In this document: positions 2,220 through 41,478 of the stretch, piece by piece
How the letters are laid out: the number at the start of each line of letters is the position of its first letter
How positions within the stretch are numbered: position 1 is the first letter of the stretch
Source of the DNA: a virus
Virus record (IMG/VR): IMGVR_UViG_3300044859_001857
Location: 1 to 49,175 of that record
Length of the DNA stretch: 49,175 nucleotides
Direction: 5' to 3' (one strand)
Made by a program: the position numbers and the translations under genes
The notes under the pieces: generated by a model
Databases searched by the model: none
Seen by the model: the letters and a program-made list of their open reading frames with translations, nothing else
What the model was told of the DNA's origin: nothing

Positions 2220-2564
2220 ATGAACTACAGTATCCCTGAAAACAGATTAAATAACGTCATCTTGAAAGCAATTGACGTGGCTTATGACCCCCAAAAAATG
2301 TATGTGGAGCCCTTACTTGATGCAGATGATAATGATGAAAATGCTTTGGCTTACAGAGATGAGGAGGGAGAACTTGTTTTTATGGTATATTTTGAGGATT
2401 ATTTTATTTATACAGACAAATATTCCAAAATGTGTCCCCTTTTAGTGATAAATGATAGAGAATTTGTATATGAAATGCATGATTTGTTTGGTAATAAATG
2501 GGAACCCGTATTTATAGAATGGTTTGAAAATAATTTCCACGTACCGATTAAGACATTAGACTAA
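2220..2564 (+). CDS. paralogous small protein, NYSIPExRL family (114 aa)
   Basis: Member of a local family whose N-terminus reads M-x-Y-x-I-x-[D/E/K]-x-[R/K]-L followed by a hydrophobic helix; other members are at 2564, 3715, 4021 and 4413. It is closest to the neighbour at 2564: both begin MNYSIPE with identical codons and share DLFG-x-[K/R]-W-x-P-[V/I]-F near the C-terminus. Acidic, no catalytic motif. Its stop shares a base with the next start (TAATG). The leader lacks a clear (I/L)xE cut site, so targeting is less certain than for the LTE family. Confidence 0.65.
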   Translation: MNYSIPENRLNNVILKAIDVAYDPQKMYVEPLLDADDNDENALAYRDEEGELVFMVYFEDYFIYTDKYSKMCPLLVINDREFVYEMHDLFGNKWEPVFIEWFENNFHVPIKTLD

Positions 2565-2947
2565 TGAACTACAGTATCCCTGAAAAAAAATTAAATAATC
2601 TTATCTACCGAACCATCGGTAAGATAATTGATAAGGATACCATTAAAAGTACCCCTGATTTGGAATTTAGAAACAGTGATGTTATCACTAAAATAACTTA
2701 TCACGATGATAATTTTGACGAGTTTTTTGCAATATATTTTGAAAATTATTTTAGAGACTCAAATAGATTAAGAAATGCTGCGCCACTTTTACTTGCCGAT
2801 GATGATAATGTTATACCCATTTTAACTGATTTGTTTGGTGATAGGTGGTACCCGATTTTTGTTCAGTGGGTGAACGATAATTTTAACCACAAAGTGAAAA
2901 CATTTATGAACCCAAAGATAAATAAACCAATCTTTTTTGATGAATGA
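2564..2947 (+). CDS. paralogous small protein, NYSIPExKL family (127 aa)
   Basis: Tandem paralogue of the gene at 2220, sharing the opening MNYSIPE, an aromatic acidic middle (FxxYFENYF against FEDYF) and the DLFGDRWYPIFVQW segment near residues 89-102. Its end overlaps the beginning of the next gene. Function unknown. The duplicated N-termini are alike at DNA level over about 24 nt, which suggests recent duplication or gene conversion of the leader. Confidence 0.65.
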   Translation: MNYSIPEKKLNNLIYRTIGKIIDKDTIKSTPDLEFRNSDVITKITYHDDNFDEFFAIYFENYFRDSNRLRNAAPLLLADDDNVIPILTDLFGDRWYPIFVQWVNDNFNHKVKTFMNPKINKPIFFDE

Positions 2948-2951
2948 TTTT

Positions 2952-3338
2952 ATGAAGAAAAAAATTACTCTTACTGAATCTCAATTAGTTGAACTAATTA
3001 AAGATGTTATATTAGAACAAGAAAATGATGAAATTCCCTTGTATTTCAGACGAAGAATACCATTAATTGAAAAATTATTGGAAGAGGCTGTTGATGAAGT
3101 GGGAGATGAACAATCAATGTTTGATGATATGTTTGATTTTGCAACATATGTTATCGGCATTGTTGTGAATAATCTTACTAGTATTTTACCCGAAAACGAT
3201 GCCTTAATTCAAGATGAAGATGAATTGGAAAATTTAATTAAAGATTATTATTCCGATGATATTTTTCAACATTACGTCCCTTCAGATGAAGATGAGGATG
3301 AAGATGAGGATGAAGATGAAGATGATGAGTTATTTTAA
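2952..3338 (+). CDS. putative packaged protein with LTESQL leader and Asp/Glu-repeat tail (128 aa)
   Basis: I chose the ATG at 2952 because it gives MKKKITLTESQL, aligning with the other LTE leaders; an in-frame ATG at 2940 overlapping the upstream stop is possible. The leader ends VILE|Q, a fitting prohead-protease site. The C-terminus is a run of alternating Asp and Glu encoded by a GATGAG/GATGAA triplet repeat, ending DDELF. The tail resembles nucleic-acid-mimicking or scaffold acidic tails. The last gene of this rightward unit. Confidence 0.65.
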   Translation: MKKKITLTESQLVELIKDVILEQENDEIPLYFRRRIPLIEKLLEEAVDEVGDEQSMFDDMFDFATYVIGIVVNNLTSILPENDALIQDEDELENLIKDYYSDDIFQHYVPSDEDEDEDEDEDEDDELF

Positions 3339-3367
3339 TAATCAACCTACATGATAGGTGGGTAATT

Positions 3368-3625
3368 TTATGAACGACTTGCTTGAGATATACTATGAAT
3401 ATGTATCCCCATAGAGTCCGCTAATTCAATAATATCGTTTTTAATTTTAGGATAATCCCTGTTACAATCTTCAAAACCTTTTGAACTACTTACAGGTATC
3501 ACATAAACAGTTACGACGTATGCATTTGGGGTAATTTCATTATAAAGAACAACAATGTCATTGATACAAGAATATTTTTTTAATAAAACACCATTGAGTA
3601 GTTTGCTTAGAGAGTTTTGTTCCAT
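3368..3625 (-). CDS. unknown small protein (85 aa)
   Basis: Reads toward the left and faces the end of the gene at 2952. The start is supported by a motif ATATTTATA at 3629-3637, 12 nt from the ATG, the same spacing as at several other starts. The sequence looks like a compact alpha/beta domain (LSKLLNGVLLKKY at the N-terminus, then VTVYVIPVSSS). No known family. The protein at 17369-17656 has a similar layout and also lies alone on the minus strand, but similarity is too weak to claim homology. Confidence 0.55.
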   Translation of the reverse strand: MEQNSLSKLLNGVLLKKYSCINDIVVLYNEITPNAYVVTVYVIPVSSSKGFEDCNRDYPKIKNDIIELADSMGIHIHSISQASRS

Positions 3626-3628
3626 ATT

Positions 3629-3637
3629 TATAAATAT
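3629..3637 (-). promoter_or_regulatory. putative late promoter motif ATATTTATA (minus strand)
   Basis: Motif on the minus strand whose first base (3637) is 12 nt upstream of the ATG at 3625. The sequence is nearly palindromic here (TATTTATAAATA). Confidence 0.5.
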
Positions 3638-3666
3638 AACCCGCTTGATTTCCTAATATAGAGTAG

Positions 3667-3690
3667 CCCCCGATTTAATTGGGGGTTATT
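3667..3690 (+). terminator. stem-loop, likely terminator
   Basis: CCCCCGATT/AATTGGGGG stem followed by a T-rich stretch. It lies between two starts that point away from each other, just before the promoter-like motif at 3701. Confidence 0.6.
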
Positions 3691-3700
3691 CATTTTTAAG

Positions 3701-3712
3701 GTATTTATTATT
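3701..3712 (+). promoter_or_regulatory. putative late promoter motif GTATTTATTATT
   Basis: First base 14 nt before the ATG at 3715 and shortly after a stem-loop terminator. Confidence 0.6.
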
Positions 3713-3714
3713 GT

Positions 3715-4017
3715 ATGATATATTCTATAACCGATAAAAGACTCTTTAACGTTATTGATGTTATCATGCGTGAAGAATTCGGTAATTATACTATTATTGA
3801 TAACGCTTTTTATGCCGAACACGGATTTTTTTCTGTTGAAGAATTTCCACCATTTACTGTATTAGGTACCAAAATATATCTTAATTCAACTCAATTAATA
3901 GGTTTTATTGATGATATTATTGATTTGACATCCGTAGAGGTTTTAAAGTTTTATTTTTCAAAAGTATTCAATAGACTTATTGATAAAATTTACAACTCTT
4001 ACGGACACGAAATTTAG
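3715..4017 (+). CDS. paralogous small protein, IYSITDKRL family (100 aa)
   Basis: Third member of the M-x-Y-x-I-x-[D/E/K]-x-[R/K]-L family (MIYSITDKRLFNVIDVIM). The rest is short and hydrophobic/acidic without recognisable motifs. It is followed 3 nt after its stop by a fourth member and then a fifth, so three paralogues form one unit driven by the motif at 3701. Confidence 0.65.
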   Translation: MIYSITDKRLFNVIDVIMREEFGNYTIIDNAFYAEHGFFSVEEFPPFTVLGTKIYLNSTQLIGFIDDIIDLTSVEVLKFYFSKVFNRLIDKIYNSYGHEI

Positions 4018-4020
4018 GGA

Positions 4021-4416
4021 ATGAAATATCAAATATCAGATAAAAAATTACAAAAGTTCGTTAACCGAGTCTTTGAAATGATTTTGGGTGATTTGGTTGT
4101 TGTTTCAACATCTGAAAGTCCTGATGAATATATGGTGTCAACTAGCGAGGAGTATGAAAAATCGTTGGGACATTTGGGTAAGTATTGGTGGGCGGATTTT
4201 AGTTTTAATCCAACAACTAAAGAGGTGAAAATATCACGTCGTATATTTGATGATATTAAGGATGTATATTCTGTCCCAACATATATTTTGAGACCGTCAC
4301 TTATTTATTATTTTAAACAAAAATTACCTGAATATGTTGAGGAACTATCTTATTTTGATGGTGTTTACACATTAAATTTGGTTGATGAAATGGTATTAAT
4401 TTATAAAGTAACATGA
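4021..4416 (+). CDS. paralogous small protein, KYQISDKKL family (131 aa)
   Basis: Fourth member of the family (MKYQISDKKLQKFVNRVFEM). The middle contains a Trp pair and beta-like segments (KYWWADFSFNPTTKEVKISRR). The stop overlaps the start of the next member by 4 nt (ATGA), so the two are translationally coupled. Function unknown. Confidence 0.65.
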   Translation: MKYQISDKKLQKFVNRVFEMILGDLVVVSTSESPDEYMVSTSEEYEKSLGHLGKYWWADFSFNPTTKEVKISRRIFDDIKDVYSVPTYILRPSLIYYFKQKLPEYVEELSYFDGVYTLNLVDEMVLIYKVT

Positions 4417-4760
4417 ATTACGCAATACAAGACGATAGATTATACAAGTTAATTGACAAATACATCAAACAAATGTTTGGAGAAATTGTTATGGAGTCAT
4501 TATCAGATAAAAGATATACCAATTTTTGGGGTACAAACGAAGATTATGCCCCTGAACCTCACGGTAAAAGAATTGTTCCACCCTACGAATTGAACCAATC
4601 CGGTGTTTTGTGGAATAATTTGGGTACAAAATCACCTCATTTGACCTTGGGTGACATATTTGGACTTGATGCCGATGAGTTATTTATGTTTTATTTGGAA
4701 AAAAGTTTCCCCGTCAGAATCAAAGGTATGAGCCACGAGGAAGATTTTGATGAGGACTAA
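4413..4760 (+). CDS. paralogous small protein, NYAIQDDRL family (115 aa)
   Basis: Fifth member (MNYAIQDDRLYKLIDKYI). The N-terminal helix is amphipathic, and the remainder is acidic, ending HEEDFDED, which again places an acidic tail on a family member. It ends the array; the next gene has a different promoter type (TATCTTTG at 4784). Confidence 0.65.
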   Translation: MNYAIQDDRLYKLIDKYIKQMFGEIVMESLSDKRYTNFWGTNEDYAPEPHGKRIVPPYELNQSGVLWNNLGTKSPHLTLGDIFGLDADELFMFYLEKSFPVRIKGMSHEEDFDED

Positions 4761-5574: not shown

Positions 5575-5579
5575 AACTA

Positions 5580-5606
5580 ACCCTCACCAATCGTGAGGGT
5601 TTTTTT
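5580..5606 (+). terminator. rho-independent terminator
   Basis: ACCCTCAC/GTGAGGGT stem with a 5-nt loop and TTTTTT, 6 nt after the stop of the gene at 4816. Confidence 0.9.
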
Positions 5607-5656: not shown

Positions 5657-5815
5657 ATGAAACTGAATCCATACGCATTTATTTTAATCGGGGTTTTCAT
5701 TGCTATTATAGCAATAACAGATAGACAAATAAAACAAAAAAACATATATGAAAAAACTACTAATGACTCTTGTGTTTGTCCTGACGACAGCACTGTCTTT
5801 ATCCGCAAAATGTGA
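5657..5815 (+). CDS. small membrane protein overlapping the secreted-protein gene (52 aa)
   Basis: Begins 6 nt after a TATATTTG promoter box. Residues 6-21 form one hydrophobic segment (YAFILIGVFIAIIAIT) followed by a basic tail. The last 23 codons overlap, in another frame, the signal-peptide region of the gene at 5748. It may be a real membrane peptide, or the frame may only lead translation into the downstream gene. Confidence 0.4.
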   Translation: MKLNPYAFILIGVFIAIIAITDRQIKQKNIYEKTTNDSCVCPDDSTVFIRKM

Positions 5816-6878
5816 TTGGAACACATTAAAACTCCAACAATGGAATGAACGTAACTACTATAAATGGTATGTAAGTGGCAAAGTATTAGATGACACTTGT
5901 GTTGATTGGATGTTTATGGTTTATGATTTTCAAACTAAGAAAACCGATACTGTATTTGACAACAGAGGTATCTGTGAGGTTCAATTTAACAAAAAGGGTA
6001 AATACAAAATGTATTTGAAGGTATGGAACCGATGTGAAAAATGTGATACCACCTTATACCGTGAAGTAAACATAGTTCAATTTCCAGGGGCTAAAGTAAC
6101 CAGTACTCCGTCAACTTCAAATTGTAAAAAATATAAGTTTGAGTTGAGTTATATTAAAGGTTTTTCAGTAAAAGACACTTGTATGGATTATTACTTGATG
6201 TTCTATTCAGGACCTTGGATGGCTAAAATGACTCAAGGTGAGTGGGATTCATTGACTGATTATCAAATTGGAATGGAGTACAATTTTCCAGATGCTGATT
6301 TTTTAGATTATACCGAAACACGAGTTGTAGATTATACTTTTAAGAATTCAGGTCGTGTGTTGATGATTGCTCAGTGGTGGAACAAATGTATTGCTCAAGA
6401 TACATTCATGTTTAGGAAGTTAGACGTTTGTAAAACAACTACAAAACCTAAATGTGATTGGTCTAAACTTGGTTTTGGGTATGGTAAACCAATGCCATGT
6501 AATGTGTATAAATTTGAATTAGGTTCTATTGATAGTTGTATTAGTTATACCTCTTACATTTATAGTTTCAAGACTGGAAAATGGACTGATACATTTACAA
6601 CAAGAACTTTCACTAAAGTATTTACCGATACAGGCAAGTATAAAGTATATGTTATAGCTAGAAATAAATGTGGTGGATGTGATACTGCGTATTCTAATTT
6701 TGTAACTGTAACTTGTCAACCAACATCAGGTGTTAATGAAGTTATTAAAGGTGACCCTAAATTGATTGGAATGTATGATATGATGGGTAGACCTGTATAT
6801 CATGTTAGGGAAAACGAAGTCTTGATTTACCAATACAATGACGGAACAACACGAAAAGTATTAAAAACAAGTAAATAA
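5748..6878 (+). CDS. secreted Cys-rich PKD-like repeat protein with probable type IX secretion sorting domain (376 aa)
   Basis: Residues 1-20 are a Sec signal peptide (MKKLLMTLVFVLTTALSLSA). Three extracellular repeats follow, each ending in a similar strand: KYKMYLKVWNRCEKCDT, then RVLMIAQWWNKCIAQDT, then KYKVYVIARNKCGGCDT. Paired Cys residues suggest disulphides. The last ~45 residues (LIGMYDMMGRPVYHV ... DGTTRKVLKTSK) have the pattern of Bacteroidota type IX (Por) C-terminal sorting domains, [I/M]YDxxGRxV ... DGxxxxxK. A phage protein so built would be exported by the host and anchored or released at its surface, perhaps masking a receptor or blocking superinfection. The sorting-domain assignment is from memory of the family pattern. 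Confidence 0.7.
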   Translation: MKKLLMTLVFVLTTALSLSAKCDWNTLKLQQWNERNYYKWYVSGKVLDDTCVDWMFMVYDFQTKKTDTVFDNRGICEVQFNKKGKYKMYLKVWNRCEKCDTTLYREVNIVQFPGAKVTSTPSTSNCKKYKFELSYIKGFSVKDTCMDYYLMFYSGPWMAKMTQGEWDSLTDYQIGMEYNFPDADFLDYTETRVVDYTFKNSGRVLMIAQWWNKCIAQDTFMFRKLDVCKTTTKPKCDWSKLGFGYGKPMPCNVYKFELGSIDSCISYTSYIYSFKTGKWTDTFTTRTFTKVFTDTGKYKVYVIARNKCGGCDTAYSNFVTVTCQPTSGVNEVIKGDPKLIGMYDMMGRPVYHVRENEVLIYQYNDGTTRKVLKTSK

Positions 6879-6886
6879 AAAATAAG

Positions 6887-6914
6887 ACCCGAGATGAAAG
6901 TCTCGGGTTTTTTG
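6887..6914 (+). terminator. rho-independent terminator
   Basis: ACCCGAGA/TCTCGGGT stem, 6-nt loop, then TTTTTTG. It ends the secreted-protein transcript. Confidence 0.9.
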
Positions 6915-7561: not shown

Positions 7562-7957
7562 ATGAAAAAAAGAGTAATTAGATTAACTGAAACTGATATT
7601 AAGAATATTGTCAGAAGAGTTATTTCAGAACAAAATGCCCCCGTAAAAAATGCTGTAAAAGGATATGATGATTTAAAGAGTGCTGTTGGTGGTCCTGACC
7701 CTGAAATTGTGGAGACTCTTAAAGATATGGGATTTGAAAAACAATTCTGTAAAAATGCTAAAGTTAATCCTATGGGGATTGAATTAAGTTATGAGTATTG
7801 TAACAAAGCAAGACCTCAGATTTTGGTGTCTTACCCAAAACCATATGATTCCGCGGAAGTGGTTGACCTAATCAATCAAAAAATTATTGAAATAATTGAT
7901 AATGTTAGTCCTGAAAAATTGGAATCCGCAATGAGAGGATATTTCGCAAATCAATAA
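7562..7957 (+). CDS. putative packaged protein, LTETDI leader (131 aa)
   Basis: The leader reads RLTETDIKNIVRRVISE|Q, clearly homologous to those at 648 and 1190, with the predicted cut ISE|QN. The mature part (about 108 residues) includes two Cys (FCKNAK, EYCNK) and alternating strands and helices; no family recognised. Its own late motif lies upstream and a strong terminator downstream, so it is a single-gene unit. Confidence 0.7.
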   Translation: MKKRVIRLTETDIKNIVRRVISEQNAPVKNAVKGYDDLKSAVGGPDPEIVETLKDMGFEKQFCKNAKVNPMGIELSYEYCNKARPQILVSYPKPYDSAEVVDLINQKIIEIIDNVSPEKLESAMRGYFANQ

Positions 7958-9795: not shown

Positions 9796-10053
9796 ATGGG
9801 AAAAAAAATTATTAAATTGACAGAATCTGAATTAGTTGATTTGGTGAAAAAAGTTATCACCGAAGAATATTATGATAGAGACAAACTTTGGAATAGAGAT
9901 TATGTTGCAAATCGTTTGATGACCGGCCCAAGACAAATGAGAAGATGGGCAAAAGATTTACCTGAATATGCGTGTGTAGATAAAAATGGTAACGACGCTA
10001 TTTGTACTAAAATTCCTGAAGTGGTATTTGTCTTTCTTACTGGAAGATATTAA
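9796..10053 (+). CDS. putative packaged protein, LTESEL leader (85 aa)
   Basis: The leader KLTESELVDLVKKVITE|E has the predicted cut at ITE|E. The mature remainder is only ~63 residues, basic in the middle (GPRQMRRWAKDLPEYACV) with two Cys, and ends in a hydrophobic stretch (VVFVFLTGRY). It lies 2 nt after the preceding gene, so the trio 8211-10053 is one unit. Function unknown. Confidence 0.65.
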   Translation: MGKKIIKLTESELVDLVKKVITEEYYDRDKLWNRDYVANRLMTGPRQMRRWAKDLPEYACVDKNGNDAICTKIPEVVFVFLTGRY

Positions 10054-22101: not shown

Positions 22102-22729
22102 TTTATCAAGGATATTAAAACAAATTCTATCAAGAAATAAATGGACTGATAGAGGTACAACTTATGTCTTCACTCAAATTGTTTTTGACGAGGGGGTATA
22201 TGAATTTTATGTAAATGCTACTCAGTCTGAAGATATCACATTTTTAGCCTTTAACATCTATGGCTTTTGTGAAAAATTAATTTTAGCTGCCTTTGATATT
22301 TTGGATATTGAGGATACCGCCTATGAAATTAAATTAAATTTTTCAGGACCAAATAATTTGGATGGTAAAAGATTAACATATTCAATGTATCACGTTAGTG
22401 ATAAGGACAAACAAAAAACCTTAAATAAGTTTAATAGTTTACCCCTTATAGGTGCTATAGTTAAAGATGAAGAAATTATCCCATATAAAGGAAAAGCGTC
22501 AGACTTTAATTTGGATATAAATTCTACGTTAAAATCAATTGATTTTACGTTTTATGTTGATTTTGATAAAGAAAAATATGGTATATCTAAAAATGAAGCT
22601 CAAAACCACATTTTTGTTGACATGACCAATAATTACATGAGTGGGTTTTTACTTTCTCAATATGAAAATAAGTTTATTACTGTAAATGATGGAGATTGGG
22701 CATTTCTCACATCAATAACAATAACTTAA
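22094..22729 (+). CDS. unknown protein (211 aa)
   Basis: Overlaps the metallopeptidase gene by 8 nt. N-terminus basic (LSRILKQILSRNKWTDRGTT), middle hydrophobic with strand-like segments. Near the C-terminus is EKYGISKNEAQNHIF; the same YGISK-x-EAQ string occurs in the protein at 23387. No family recognised. Ends overlapping the convergent gene by 4 nt. Confidence 0.5.
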   Translation: MTDLSRILKQILSRNKWTDRGTTYVFTQIVFDEGVYEFYVNATQSEDITFLAFNIYGFCEKLILAAFDILDIEDTAYEIKLNFSGPNNLDGKRLTYSMYHVSDKDKQKTLNKFNSLPLIGAIVKDEEIIPYKGKASDFNLDINSTLKSIDFTFYVDFDKEKYGISKNEAQNHIFVDMTNNYMSGFLLSQYENKFITVNDGDWAFLTSITIT

Positions 22730-37576: not shown

Positions 37577-38221
37577 CTATAAACCAAGTATGTCATCAAC
37601 TATTTGAGAAGAATTTAATTCGTTCCAAGAACGAGGATGTTCGTATGACCAAAAAGATTTCCAATTACCAAAATAGAGTACTCCTTGAAATCTATCGTCA
37701 ACAGTTTTCCAATCTGTAGATGATTTAGGTAATCTACCTATTTTATATGTTTTGTAAGGTTCAACACCATCTATGTTGAAAAAGTTAGGTGTTAATTTAT
37801 TTAGATTATCAAACTTACTTTTAATAATTGGCTTACACCCACTTATTTTTGAATATTGTAAAACTTTGGACATCCAAAATTTGGCTTCGTCCTCATCATT
37901 AGTTGTGATTTCAAAATTAACTAATTTACCCCTATCATTGTATCTGTGAGACCATATTAAAGATAAACCAATCTCACTATCATATTTGTAGATTAATATT
38001 TCAAAGTCCATGTAAAACTTAATATCAAGTTGAAACATCTTTTTTTGACCGTAGATGTTTTTACTTGTTATGTGATATCCTTGAACAAGTTTACTTATTT
38101 GAGACTTTTTTGGATACTCCCTAACCTCTACATAATATAAGTTATCAGGTCCATCAACATTAACCTTGATACCATCGTTAAAATCATAGTAAATTTTTAT
38201 ATCATCTATTTTGGTATACAT
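37577..38221 (-). CDS. half-length strand-loop-strand heptosyltransferase-like protein (214 aa)
   Basis: The N-terminal ~110 residues are beta-rich (IYYDFNDGIKVNVDGPDNLY; GYHITSKNIYGQKKMFQLDI; IWSHRYNDRGKLVNFEI), like the strand-loop-strand domain in front of autotransporter O-heptosyltransferase-type enzymes. Next come EAKFWMSKVLQYSKISGCKP, VEPYKTYKIGRLP and an end SSQIVDDILGL, where family members continue into the GT9-like catalytic half. Here the protein stops, so it looks like a shortened relative. It overlaps the carbamoyltransferase by 20 nt. From memory of the family only. Confidence 0.45.
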   Translation of the reverse strand: MYTKIDDIKIYYDFNDGIKVNVDGPDNLYYVEVREYPKKSQISKLVQGYHITSKNIYGQKKMFQLDIKFYMDFEILIYKYDSEIGLSLIWSHRYNDRGKLVNFEITTNDEDEAKFWMSKVLQYSKISGCKPIIKSKFDNLNKLTPNFFNIDGVEPYKTYKIGRLPKSSTDWKTVDDRFQGVLYFGNWKSFWSYEHPRSWNELNSSQIVDDILGL

Positions 38222-39797
38222 AATTTCCTATAACTAATTTATCAACAACTTTATTTTTCAAATGATTAAAGGCGTGTGAGGGGTTTTCAATTATTGGTTC
38301 TCCGTGAGTATTGAATGATGTATTTAATATCGCGGGAATTGACGATAATTCAAAATATTGTTTCATCAACTGATATATTTTTGGGTTATTCTCACTTGTA
38401 ATTACCTGTGGTCGTGCGGTTTTATCTGATTTCTGAACCACCGCAGGAATTTTGTCCATCCACTCAGTTTTTGTTGAGTAACATATTGTCATGAACTGAG
38501 CGGAATATTTTGATTTGTTGGTTGTAAACAAATCTTCAAAATACTCATCCAAGACCATCGGTGCGAACGGCATTGTGTCGTACCTGTTTAATCTACGATT
38601 AAGAACTTTATGGGTCTCTAATTGAGTTGGTCTAACCAATAAACTTCTATTACCTAACGCTCTTGGTCCAAACTCCATACCCCCATCAAACCATCCGATG
38701 ATTTTTCCTGAATGAATGTCTTTGGCAATTTCATCATAATCTAATCCCGTTCTAATGAAATCAAATTCTCTTGAGAACTCATAAATGGATTCTTCATCAT
38801 AACTTGGACCAAATGAAAAATTTGTCAATTTCAAAGGTTTTTTTAATTCACCCAATTGATTTGATTTCCAAAGAGCTGCACCTAAAGACAATCCTTCATC
38901 ACCCATTGGTGGGTATACAAACAATTCGTCTAACCAATCCAATTCATTTAACTTTTGGTTTAGTTTGACATTTGCAAACAATCCACCGGCAACTGCGATT
39001 TTGGTGTACTCAGGAAATTTTTTATGAATATCATTAAAGAATTCAATCATTAAATCTTCGGTTAGTTTTTGAAGATTATATGAAATAATTTCTCTTTGTT
39101 TTGGTGTTTTCATCAGACCATCATGATACATTGAATCTATGAGGAACTTGGTTTTTTCTGCGGTTGCTGAAGGTGAGAAATTAAAATTCTCATACTTTAT
39201 AACACTTGATAGTAGATTATGAATCTTTTCATCGTAGTGTCCTTCAGGTGCCATACCCATGAGCTTACCTTCATCCTTACACATTTTCCATTTACCTTGC
39301 ATGTATTGGTCATAACCCATAATACCTGATGTGACAAATGCCCAAATGTGTGCTAAACTTCCTGATGTTGATTGTTCAAGATTGAATATCTCTAACATCT
39401 TACCATCTTCACATAGAAAAATTTTCATTAGGTGTTCATGACCACCACCATCATAAGACAAAGTCAAAACTTTACCGTCCATTCCCGAAGTGAAATAGGC
39501 ACCGGCACAGTGTGCTGTGTGGTGAGAGATTATTTCATAAGGTTTACCGTTAGAAATAAAACTTGTGTAAGGTTCATGACTTGGGAAAACATCAACACGG
39601 TAATCAGAATCTTCAAATTTCAAACCGGTGACTTCTTCAATCTTTGCATGTGACTTTTCAGGTAAACAGTCGTGATTATCACCCGCTTTTAATCGGGTCA
39701 TTCTCTCCTCTTCAAGACAGTTTATTATTTCACCATCTTTAACTAAAGAGATAGATTGACTATGGTAACCTGTGTAGATTCCGTAGATTGTGCTCAT
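38202..39797 (-). CDS. carbamoyltransferase, NodU/CmcH family, copy 2 (531 aa)
   Basis: The N-terminal Kae1-like domain has YTGYHSQSISLVKDGEI, HHTAH (H92, H93, H96) for metal binding and TLSYDGGGHE (D116). The C-terminal domain shows GWFDGGMEFGPRALGNRSLL, NRYDTMPFAPMVL, KTARPQVI and LNTSFNTHGEPIIENP. These enzymes carbamoylate hydroxyl groups (sugars, antibiotics) from carbamoyl phosphate and ATP. The 1-nt gap to the other copy and overlap with the glycosyltransferase-like gene point to one pathway acting on a sugar, nucleoside or modified base. Confidence 0.85.
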   Translation of the reverse strand: MSTIYGIYTGYHSQSISLVKDGEIINCLEEERMTRLKAGDNHDCLPEKSHAKIEEVTGLKFEDSDYRVDVFPSHEPYTSFISNGKPYEIISHHTAHCAGAYFTSGMDGKVLTLSYDGGGHEHLMKIFLCEDGKMLEIFNLEQSTSGSLAHIWAFVTSGIMGYDQYMQGKWKMCKDEGKLMGMAPEGHYDEKIHNLLSSVIKYENFNFSPSATAEKTKFLIDSMYHDGLMKTPKQREIISYNLQKLTEDLMIEFFNDIHKKFPEYTKIAVAGGLFANVKLNQKLNELDWLDELFVYPPMGDEGLSLGAALWKSNQLGELKKPLKLTNFSFGPSYDEESIYEFSREFDFIRTGLDYDEIAKDIHSGKIIGWFDGGMEFGPRALGNRSLLVRPTQLETHKVLNRRLNRYDTMPFAPMVLDEYFEDLFTTNKSKYSAQFMTICYSTKTEWMDKIPAVVQKSDKTARPQVITSENNPKIYQLMKQYFELSSIPAILNTSFNTHGEPIIENPSHAFNHLKNKVVDKLVIGNYVYQNR

Positions 39798-39798
39798 A

Positions 39799-41478
39799 CT
39801 ATCTATTTTGAACTATAACGTAATTTCCTATAACAAGATAATTTAAATAACAGTTGTGAAGAGCTCTAATGGCATCATGTGGGGTTTCAACAATAGGTTC
39901 TCTCGGTCCATTGAAACTTGTATTCAACAATACGGGTACCCCTGTTTTGTTATAGAATGAAGAAATTATTTGATGAAATCTTGGATTATTGTCCTTTGTT
40001 ACTGATTGATATCTTGCGGATTTATCAATGTGAGTAACGGCAGGAATTCTGTCCCACCATTCAGGTTTAACTTGACTGGTAACCAACATGTGTGGTGAGT
40101 AGGTATCTAATTCAAAAATTTCACTTTGATGTTCAAACAATACTGCGGGTGCAAAAGGACGATACCACTCTCTGAATTTAATATCATGATTGATATGGTC
40201 TTTCATCCAATGAGGTATTGGAGATGAGATGATTGACCTATTACCAAGAGCTCTTGGACCAATTTCAGAACCACCTTGATACCAACCAATAACTCTATTG
40301 TTAACTAATTTATCTGAGATAAATTCAACTAAATCATCAAAATTTGGATAATGGGTTGCTTCACAGTTTGGGAAATCTTCTAATGCTTTTAGGAAATTTT
40401 CCTCAGAATATGTTTTACCTAAATAAGGGGAAATCATTTCCGTCTTTTCAATATCCGCAACTTGTTGATATGCATACCATGCACAACCTAATGGGATTCC
40501 ACTATCATCTGACGGTGGTAAAAAGAAACAACCATCGTAAAGACCTGATTTTAAGATTCGTTCATTTGAATTACAATTTAAAAAAGAACCACCTGCAGTA
40601 CAAACATTGTTTGATTTTGTTAATTTTTTTGCTAATTCAGATAACATAACAGAAATTCTCTCTTGTTCTCTCTGATAAATTCCCGCAACACAAGCCCTTG
40701 AGAAGAAGTCAGATTTCCAAGTCACATTTGGGTAGATTGTATTATTTGGGATGCAAATATCGGTTTGAGTTGAATCAGTCCAATGGGCAAATTTTGGTGC
40801 CTCATCCACAATATCTTGATTGGCGTATGATGCCAGTCCCATCAGTTTACCTGCGGGCCAAGTTTGGGTTCTTGGTTCATAAACAAGTTGAACTGAACCT
40901 TCAGAATACATGGTACCAACCGAAGTACATTCATTAGTGTTAATATCGGGAGGAGATATAATCCATTTTTTATAGACTTCAGTGTAACCTGACTTGGTTA
41001 AATGGTAAAGTGAAATACCTTCAGTCAAGTCTTGTTGTCCACTTAAAACTTTTTCGTATTCTTCAGGATACCAATTTTTTGTTTGATTATCTGAATTCAA
41101 AATACTTCCTGATGCATCCGCCACTATGATTGCAGATTCTTCCATTCCTGATGAAAAGAATGTTGAATAAGCGTGAGCCAAGTGGTGTGGAATATGAATC
41201 AACTTCTTTCTTGGTAGATTCCAAAACTTTTGAAGTTGTTCATAAGTTGTATCAGTAACTTCAGTTGTACTGTAGACAATCAAATCAACATCATCAAGGG
41301 TGTATTTGTATTCATTCAAACAATATAAAATTGAATCCAAGGGAATTACACCACCTTGATATGCACCATCATTTTTTACCCGAGATAATCTTTCTTGAGT
41401 AATTGCAATTAGAACCTCACCATCTTTGATAAGTGCAGCTCCTTTGTCGTGACCGACAGAAAAACCTAATACTATCAT
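39799..41478 (-). CDS. carbamoyltransferase, NodU/CmcH family, copy 1 (559 aa)
   Basis: Starts MIVLGFSVGHDKGAALIKDG. Conserved parts: IPHHLAHAYSTFFSSGM (H98, H99, H102), VADASGS (D121), GWYQGGSEIGPRALGNRSII, REWYRPFAPAVL, SARYQSVTKDNNPRFHQI and VLLNTSFNGPREPIVETP. Clearly a paralogue of the next gene but diverged, so the two probably act on different positions or substrates. The upstream 97-aa gene ends in an ATGA overlap with it. Confidence 0.85.
   Translation of the reverse strand: MIVLGFSVGHDKGAALIKDGEVLIAITQERLSRVKNDGAYQGGVIPLDSILYCLNEYKYTLDDVDLIVYSTTEVTDTTYEQLQKFWNLPRKKLIHIPHHLAHAYSTFFSSGMEESAIIVADASGSILNSDNQTKNWYPEEYEKVLSGQQDLTEGISLYHLTKSGYTEVYKKWIISPPDINTNECTSVGTMYSEGSVQLVYEPRTQTWPAGKLMGLASYANQDIVDEAPKFAHWTDSTQTDICIPNNTIYPNVTWKSDFFSRACVAGIYQREQERISVMLSELAKKLTKSNNVCTAGGSFLNCNSNERILKSGLYDGCFFLPPSDDSGIPLGCAWYAYQQVADIEKTEMISPYLGKTYSEENFLKALEDFPNCEATHYPNFDDLVEFISDKLVNNRVIGWYQGGSEIGPRALGNRSIISSPIPHWMKDHINHDIKFREWYRPFAPAVLFEHQSEIFELDTYSPHMLVTSQVKPEWWDRIPAVTHIDKSARYQSVTKDNNPRFHQIISSFYNKTGVPVLLNTSFNGPREPIVETPHDAIRALHNCYLNYLVIGNYVIVQNR

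Follow-up and report, generated by a model that had tools for sequence, protein, structure and literature searches.

A phage protein with a short C-terminal tag, probably exported through the type IX secretion system of its host

We describe a phage protein that is likely exported through the type IX secretion system (T9SS) of the host. Its gene lies in a 49 kb virus record (49,175 nucleotides, analysed whole and called the window here) that also carries an endolysin, an RNA ligase, a thymidylate synthase, a tape-measure-like gene and 14 tRNAs. Host T9SS export is the best reading because the C-terminus of the protein is modular, lies exactly at the C-terminal end, belongs to SprA-positive Bacteroidota and can be exchanged with canonical C-terminal sorting domains (CTDs); our confidence covers export alone and not the function outside the cell. 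A preliminary description of this DNA had proposed that the phage uses the host T9SS, and computational comparison favours such export, though not by way of a domain of the TIGR04183/PF18962 type.

The open reading frame is the one placed in that description, with an ATG start, and is a real coding gene rather than a chance one, with omega values of 0.05–0.25 in the body of its family that indicate purifying selection. A signal peptide is likewise predicted: judged by eye, the N-terminus (MKKLLMTLVFVLTTALSLSA-KCDW) looks like the classical Sec/SPase I type without a lipobox, and such a start is clear by eye in all relatives. Matches of residues 1–46 to Shiga toxin B-subunit models (13–19 bits against cut-offs of 165–203) reflect signal-peptide similarity only and were discarded. 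The protein holds 15 cysteines, and of its three proposed Cys-rich PKD-like repeats, the first and third are clearly homologous to each other (local score 120; best among 1000 shuffles, 61), but the second is divergent, contains an insertion and gives scores of 77 against a best shuffle of 73 and of 56 against 54. The label PKD-like is fair since repeat 3 falls barely below the Pfam gathering scores for PKD_4 (24.3 bits against 27) and PKD (22.5 against 23.5), short of membership of the PKD family by that measure. Most relatives have two repeats and are missing the third. A Foldseek search with the whole model of the protein returned generic FnIII/Ig tandem proteins only, with no indication of function. 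The ending LIGMYDMMGRPVYHV...DGTTRKVLK (6762–6866), also noted earlier, is conserved C-terminally in all aligned viral relatives. An open reading frame similar to the small one that overlaps the start of the gene lies upstream of the cargo gene at four loci (L004, L006, L008 and L016), with its N-terminal half conserved.

Table 1. Positions of the features discussed, in window coordinates unless a locus is named
Feature	Position	Strand	Basis or remark
Proteins with the shared MKKVVRLTEADLVRIVKRVIKEQ-type start	648-1163, 1190-1483, 2937-3338, 7562-7957, 9796-10053		
Intrinsic terminator upstream of cargo gene (cassette border)	5579..5601	+	
Small ORF of 52 aa with a single hydrophobic segment	5657..5815	+	Overlaps cargo gene start in another frame
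Phage T9SS cargo gene (putative), 376 aa	5748..6878	+	Relatives at 18 viral loci; purifying selection
Predicted Sec signal peptide (SPase I type), residues 1-20	5748..5807	+	Sequence; kept in every relative
PKD-like Cys-rich repeat 1	5808..6080	+	Repeat comparison
Divergent PKD-like repeat 2 with inserted helical segment	6099..6440	+	Repeat comparison
PKD-like repeat 3	6444..6719	+	Pfam PKD_4 24.3 bits; alignment
Linker with cleavage-like motif PTSGVNEV	6720..6752	+	Likened to PT/GI of Prevotella intermedia short CTDs; cleavage predicted
Putative short T9SS C-terminal sorting domain, strands around LIGMY, LIYQYN and KVLK	6753..6875	+	Comparative and AF2
Intrinsic terminator downstream of cargo gene (cassette border)	6884..6911	+	
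Cohesin-cargo block	L087 7180-13017; L088 72-6804		Partly kept in immuto gp13-gp18

Several other features of the window were seen along the way. Megablast of its first 25 kb matched no phage record, and a weak second match at 22133–22222 was set aside, as it lies in an open reading frame with neither signal peptide nor tag. A near-identical N-terminal segment (MKKVVRLTEADLVRIVKRVIKEQ and variants) opens several otherwise different window proteins and resembles a delivery tag; it may target proteins to the capsid and be removed after IKE/ISE by a prohead protease of the T4 type. A second N-terminal pattern is found in five small proteins at 2220–4760, which start with MNYSIPENRL, MNYSIPEKKL, MIYSITDKRL, MKYQISDKKL and MNYAIQDDRL. 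Two adjoining genes at 38202–41478 on the minus strand encode Nol-like carbamoyltransferases, possibly for modified bases or glycans.

The preliminary description had likened the end of the protein to T9SS type A sorting domains and offered an HMM search as the check, with the lack of a significant hit counting against it. No sorting-domain profile matched: the NCBIfam and Pfam models (TIGR04183 and PF18962), which describe the long seven-stranded domain, found nothing in the window protein or 15 viral relatives at an E limit of 10, so that in this form the claim formally fails. What survives is that the end of the protein acts like a sorting signal for the T9SS, and comparison gives good support to its being a short T9SS signal, a variant missed by TIGR04183 and PF18962. 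When 296 genomes from the order of a Flavobacterium with the same C-terminal end (L027) were searched with a profile, 83 gave matches at E<=1e-4, up to about twelve per genome. In 41 different extracted proteins the module sits 0–7 residues before the stop codon; their bodies form at least 17 groups without detectable mutual similarity, and nearly all that have a visible N-terminus bear a signal peptide. The module is, in other words, a tag common to unrelated secreted proteins. SprA is present in 59 of the 60 tested genomes with a short tag, a count to be read with the fact that relatives of those genomes nearly all have SprA anyway. Across the phylum, all four tagged genomes in a sample of 345 fall among the 266 that are SprA-positive and none among the 79 that are SprA-negative; since this sample is so poor in short-tag genomes, the association comes mainly from the set of 60. 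Tens of canonical type A cargo proteins are encoded in each of the 12 short-tag genomes tested. For only 1–3 of 27 such short ends did the sorting-domain models give even marginal scores, and annotation therefore overlooks them. This leaves a gap in T9SS cargo prediction for small-genome Flavobacteriales (L039, L042–L070 and other loci of the order-wide search).

Compared with 31 canonical CTDs, the tag gives a profile–profile score of 25.9, the maximum of 200 column-shuffled controls being 16.0; the alignment falls on the YDxxGR motif and is confident only over this first motif. AlphaFold2 (AF2), given the 52-residue end and an alignment of 67 rows, predicts a three-stranded sheet (pLDDT 86) and not the seven-stranded Ig-like sandwich of 70–100 residues that defines type A. 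The predicted single three-stranded sheet instead agrees with the short CTDs of Prevotella intermedia, as do a length within 40–55 residues at the extreme C-terminus, a glycine and a basic residue conserved in the first motif and a conserved basic residue in the last strand; G10, R11 and K33 of the tag alignment are invariant or nearly so. The middle strand departs from them, reading IYxYxxG in place of GxY/GxN. A bridging host sequence (L041) reads EGVYIYRYNDG, and the linker of the phage proteins has PTSGV or a close variant. Structural matches of the 52-residue tag by VIA-align to HBP35 (Z 3.3) and the RemA CTD (Z 2.5; 29% identity) are weak and no more than consistent with this, because unrelated folds reach equal scores. 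For HBP35 of P. gingivalis, targeting needs no more than the final 22 residues (PMC11285876, PMC11969387).

A natural exchange of tags is seen in another phage protein family, the third considered here, found on 72 viral contigs of up to 171 kb, where its genes adjoin an M15-peptidase endolysin and fibre-like genes at the loci examined. The short tag ends 28 of its members and a canonical CTD about 28; nine of nine canonical tails tested score above the TIGR04183 cut-off, and a short-tagged member (L318) has no TIGR04183 match. The body of the latter is 76% identical over 916 residues to that of a member with the canonical tag (L291). The simplest reading, since orthologous phage proteins bear either tag, is that the short and canonical ends do the same job, with the proviso that this family differs from that of the window and is linked to it by tag similarity of about 30–40%. 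One protein of the third family is similar, in part of its length, to a virion protein annotated in a Synechococcus phage.

A second cargo accompanies the window gene family in 6 of 19 records, including all four longer than 100 kb. This protein of about 630 residues has a signal peptide, a cohesin domain and a TIGR04183 domain over the cut-off, and is found on at least 107 viral contigs. Among the best 80 loci, the canonical tag is terminal in 73 of 79 automatically extracted open reading frames, the other six comprising one cut by a contig end and five wrongly chosen frames. A relative is present in a cultured Flavobacterium phage, as gp15 of immuto, with a signal peptide, a cohesin domain and a tag of 44.8 bits (cut-off 23). 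No short-tag protein was found at E 0.01 in immuto or in any of 23 further large virus records that carry the cohesin cargo, and the window's protein is thus limited to a subset of phages. Beside the cohesin cargo lies a conserved block encoding a lipoprotein, a large exported protein, a GEVED-domain protein, a holin-like protein and an endolysin; the lipoprotein was suspected to be CsgG-like, an identity dropped for want of Pfam support.

Relatives of the window protein were found at 18 IMG/VR loci, one of them identical to it, and all complete viral relatives retain a predicted signal peptide, at least two of the repeats (three in some) and the C-terminal module. Cultured phages and plasmids gave no relative. 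The C-terminal alignment, searched against genomes of 84,980 species, found seven loci, all in Bacteroidota. Six are members of the window's own family on contigs of aquatic Bacteroidota MAGs, with the same layout (five whole, one, L022, cut by the contig end), and three of these (L021, L024 and L026) have clearly cellular neighbours; the seventh, in the Flavobacterium mentioned above, is an unrelated secreted protein that shares the C-terminal end. Phage and host copies interleave, in one phage/host pair a stretch of 727 bp that does not extend beyond the cargo gene is 92% identical, and the cargo genes of the relatives occur in at least six different neighbourhoods. As the gene is also a cassette, these observations point to aquatic Bacteroidota as the probable hosts and to repeated exchange of the gene. 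For one pair of loci in the window's own family (L010/L018), dN is 0.05 in the body and 0.65 in the tag, the body being kept while signal peptide and tag recombine. In one of the aquatic MAGs (L024, 2851–5000), the homologue stands between two pieces resembling a single rimO-type gene without its middle, which looks like an insertion or an assembly chimera. Directly downstream of one phage copy (L254, 3219–6107) is an exported PKD-containing protein of at least 963 residues.

Taken together, the signal peptide would carry the protein via Sec into the periplasm. There the module of 40–52 residues, probably a type A CTD cut down to three beta-strands with its YDMxGR, IYxY and Lys motifs, would be recognised by the host SprA translocon and PorV shuttle, as the comparative link to T9SS suggests. 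The protein would then cross the outer membrane, its tag probably being cut in the TSGV linker by PorU, and the PKD-like Cys-rich repeats would be left anchored at the surface or released, by analogy with type A behaviour. In F. johnsoniae, for instance, type A cargo uses PorV and is statically anchored or released, whereas SprB has a type B tag that addresses it to the gliding machinery (PMC12618676). Because fixed anchoring or release is what type A CTDs bring about, and gliding is served by type B, a role in gliding appears the least likely of the functions suggested in the preliminary description, where receptor blocking and exclusion of other phages were also named as possibilities. The repeats may attach to or shield structures on the surface of the infected cell, keeping rival phages, or progeny meeting debris, off the receptor. 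Such receptor masking is our preferred function, albeit a tentative guess; alternatively, the protein could be the phage's copy of an adhesin from the host surface, or could compete for the translocon.

Export itself is disputed by the view that the protein stays in the periplasm, having a working signal peptide and an ordinary small beta domain at its end, and never crosses the outer membrane. The silence of all sorting-domain models on the window protein would fit this, as would a profile likeness to canonical CTDs restricted to one motif, but a module that forms the very C-terminus of many secreted proteins unrelated to one another, and that canonical CTDs replace in orthologous phage proteins, speaks against it, and we regard it as improbable. 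Slightly less probable again is a virion component, a PKD/Ig-like decoration or receptor-binding protein whose CTD-like end would act as a PorV/SprA ligand. Every relative has a signal peptide by eye, the gene in the window forms a cassette between terminators whose surroundings vary among relatives, and host chromosomes hold whole-protein homologues, all of which weigh against it, even though virions commonly bear Ig-like domains, the second and third cargo families adjoin endolysin and fibre-like genes, and the third shows the likeness to a virion protein noted above.

The remaining alternatives concern what the protein does. Its main job could be to occupy PorV/SprA and so stop host cargo secretion or movement, in that a phage protein made in quantity and bearing a strong tag might compete. 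PorV is apparently in excess or recycled, however, and copes with overproduced type A fusions (PMC12618676), and the body must matter because it is more strongly conserved than the tag; we give this explanation very little credence. A surface protein of host type, by contrast, would keep T9SS export and rival receptor masking on function only, sustaining during infection a task of the host's own such as attachment or matrix binding. The homologues in six aquatic MAGs, interleaved with phage copies, and the phage/host pair with 92% identity limited to the gene favour it, although most of the diversity so far known sits in phages; we consider it a possibility, if a doubtful one.

Related tagged proteins in many other aquatic phages suggest that infected cells may place proteins made by the virus on their surface or release them into the surroundings. 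We lean, with some reserve, to the wider view that phages of aquatic Bacteroidota as a class export proteins of their own through the host T9SS and so reshape the infected cell's surface or its surroundings, drawing on three or more cargo families unrelated to one another and on long and short tags that can replace each other. On this view the short tag would be a widespread second form of T9SS signal missed by annotation. Export of phage proteins through a dedicated host secretion machine has hardly been studied; if true, infected Bacteroidota, which are major aquatic polymer degraders, would carry or release virus-made proteins. The phage immuto on Flavobacterium provides a testable system, natural tag swaps can reveal which parts of the tag suffice, and annotation pipelines appear to have overlooked a short T9SS tag in many small-genome Flavobacteriales.

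The earlier remark that no phage example is well described holds in that we found passing mentions only, but Cryophage (PMC7468147) and the crAss-BACON cluster 2 phages (PMC6949934) had already been noted with T9SS-tagged proteins, and we found no follow-up of either in the open literature that we searched. The novelty lies in a short tag present both in phages and in many Flavobacteriales, in its interchange with the long form and in how widely phages carry such cargo.

Among known systems, the T9SS type A domain (TIGR04183; PF18962, Por_Secre_tail) resembles the short tag: both lie at the C-terminus, have a motif of YDxxGR type and a basic residue in their last strand, are partnered by a signal peptide and occur in SprA-positive genomes, and the two are exchanged on orthologous phage proteins; it differs in having 70–100 residues and seven strands against 40–52 and three. 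Closer are the short CTDs of Prevotella intermedia, which have 43–55 residues in one three-stranded sheet and are cleaved at PT/GI, cleavage and glycosylation of their cargo having been shown experimentally in what is described as the sole species reported with both CTD lengths (PMC11969387). Length, sheet, motif order, glycine and basic residues, and a PT/GI-like cleavage site are alike, whereas the taxon is another, GxY/GxN stands there for IYxY in the window tag, and the processing demonstrated there is predicted from sequence here. Immutovirus immuto gp15 (NC_055915) likewise combines a signal peptide with a T9SS tag, but has a cohesin domain and a long canonical tag and is homologous to the second cargo of sibling phages, not to the window protein. 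The Cryophage cargo genes are similarly phage-encoded, T9SS-tagged and variable between phage variants, though the cargo consists of two enzymes and a PA14 protein with type A domains (PMC7468147). A similar picture is found in the crAss-BACON cluster 2 phages, gut phages with BACON domains, unlike ours, whose proteins nonetheless also join tandem beta-domains to a T9SS sorting domain (PMC6949934).
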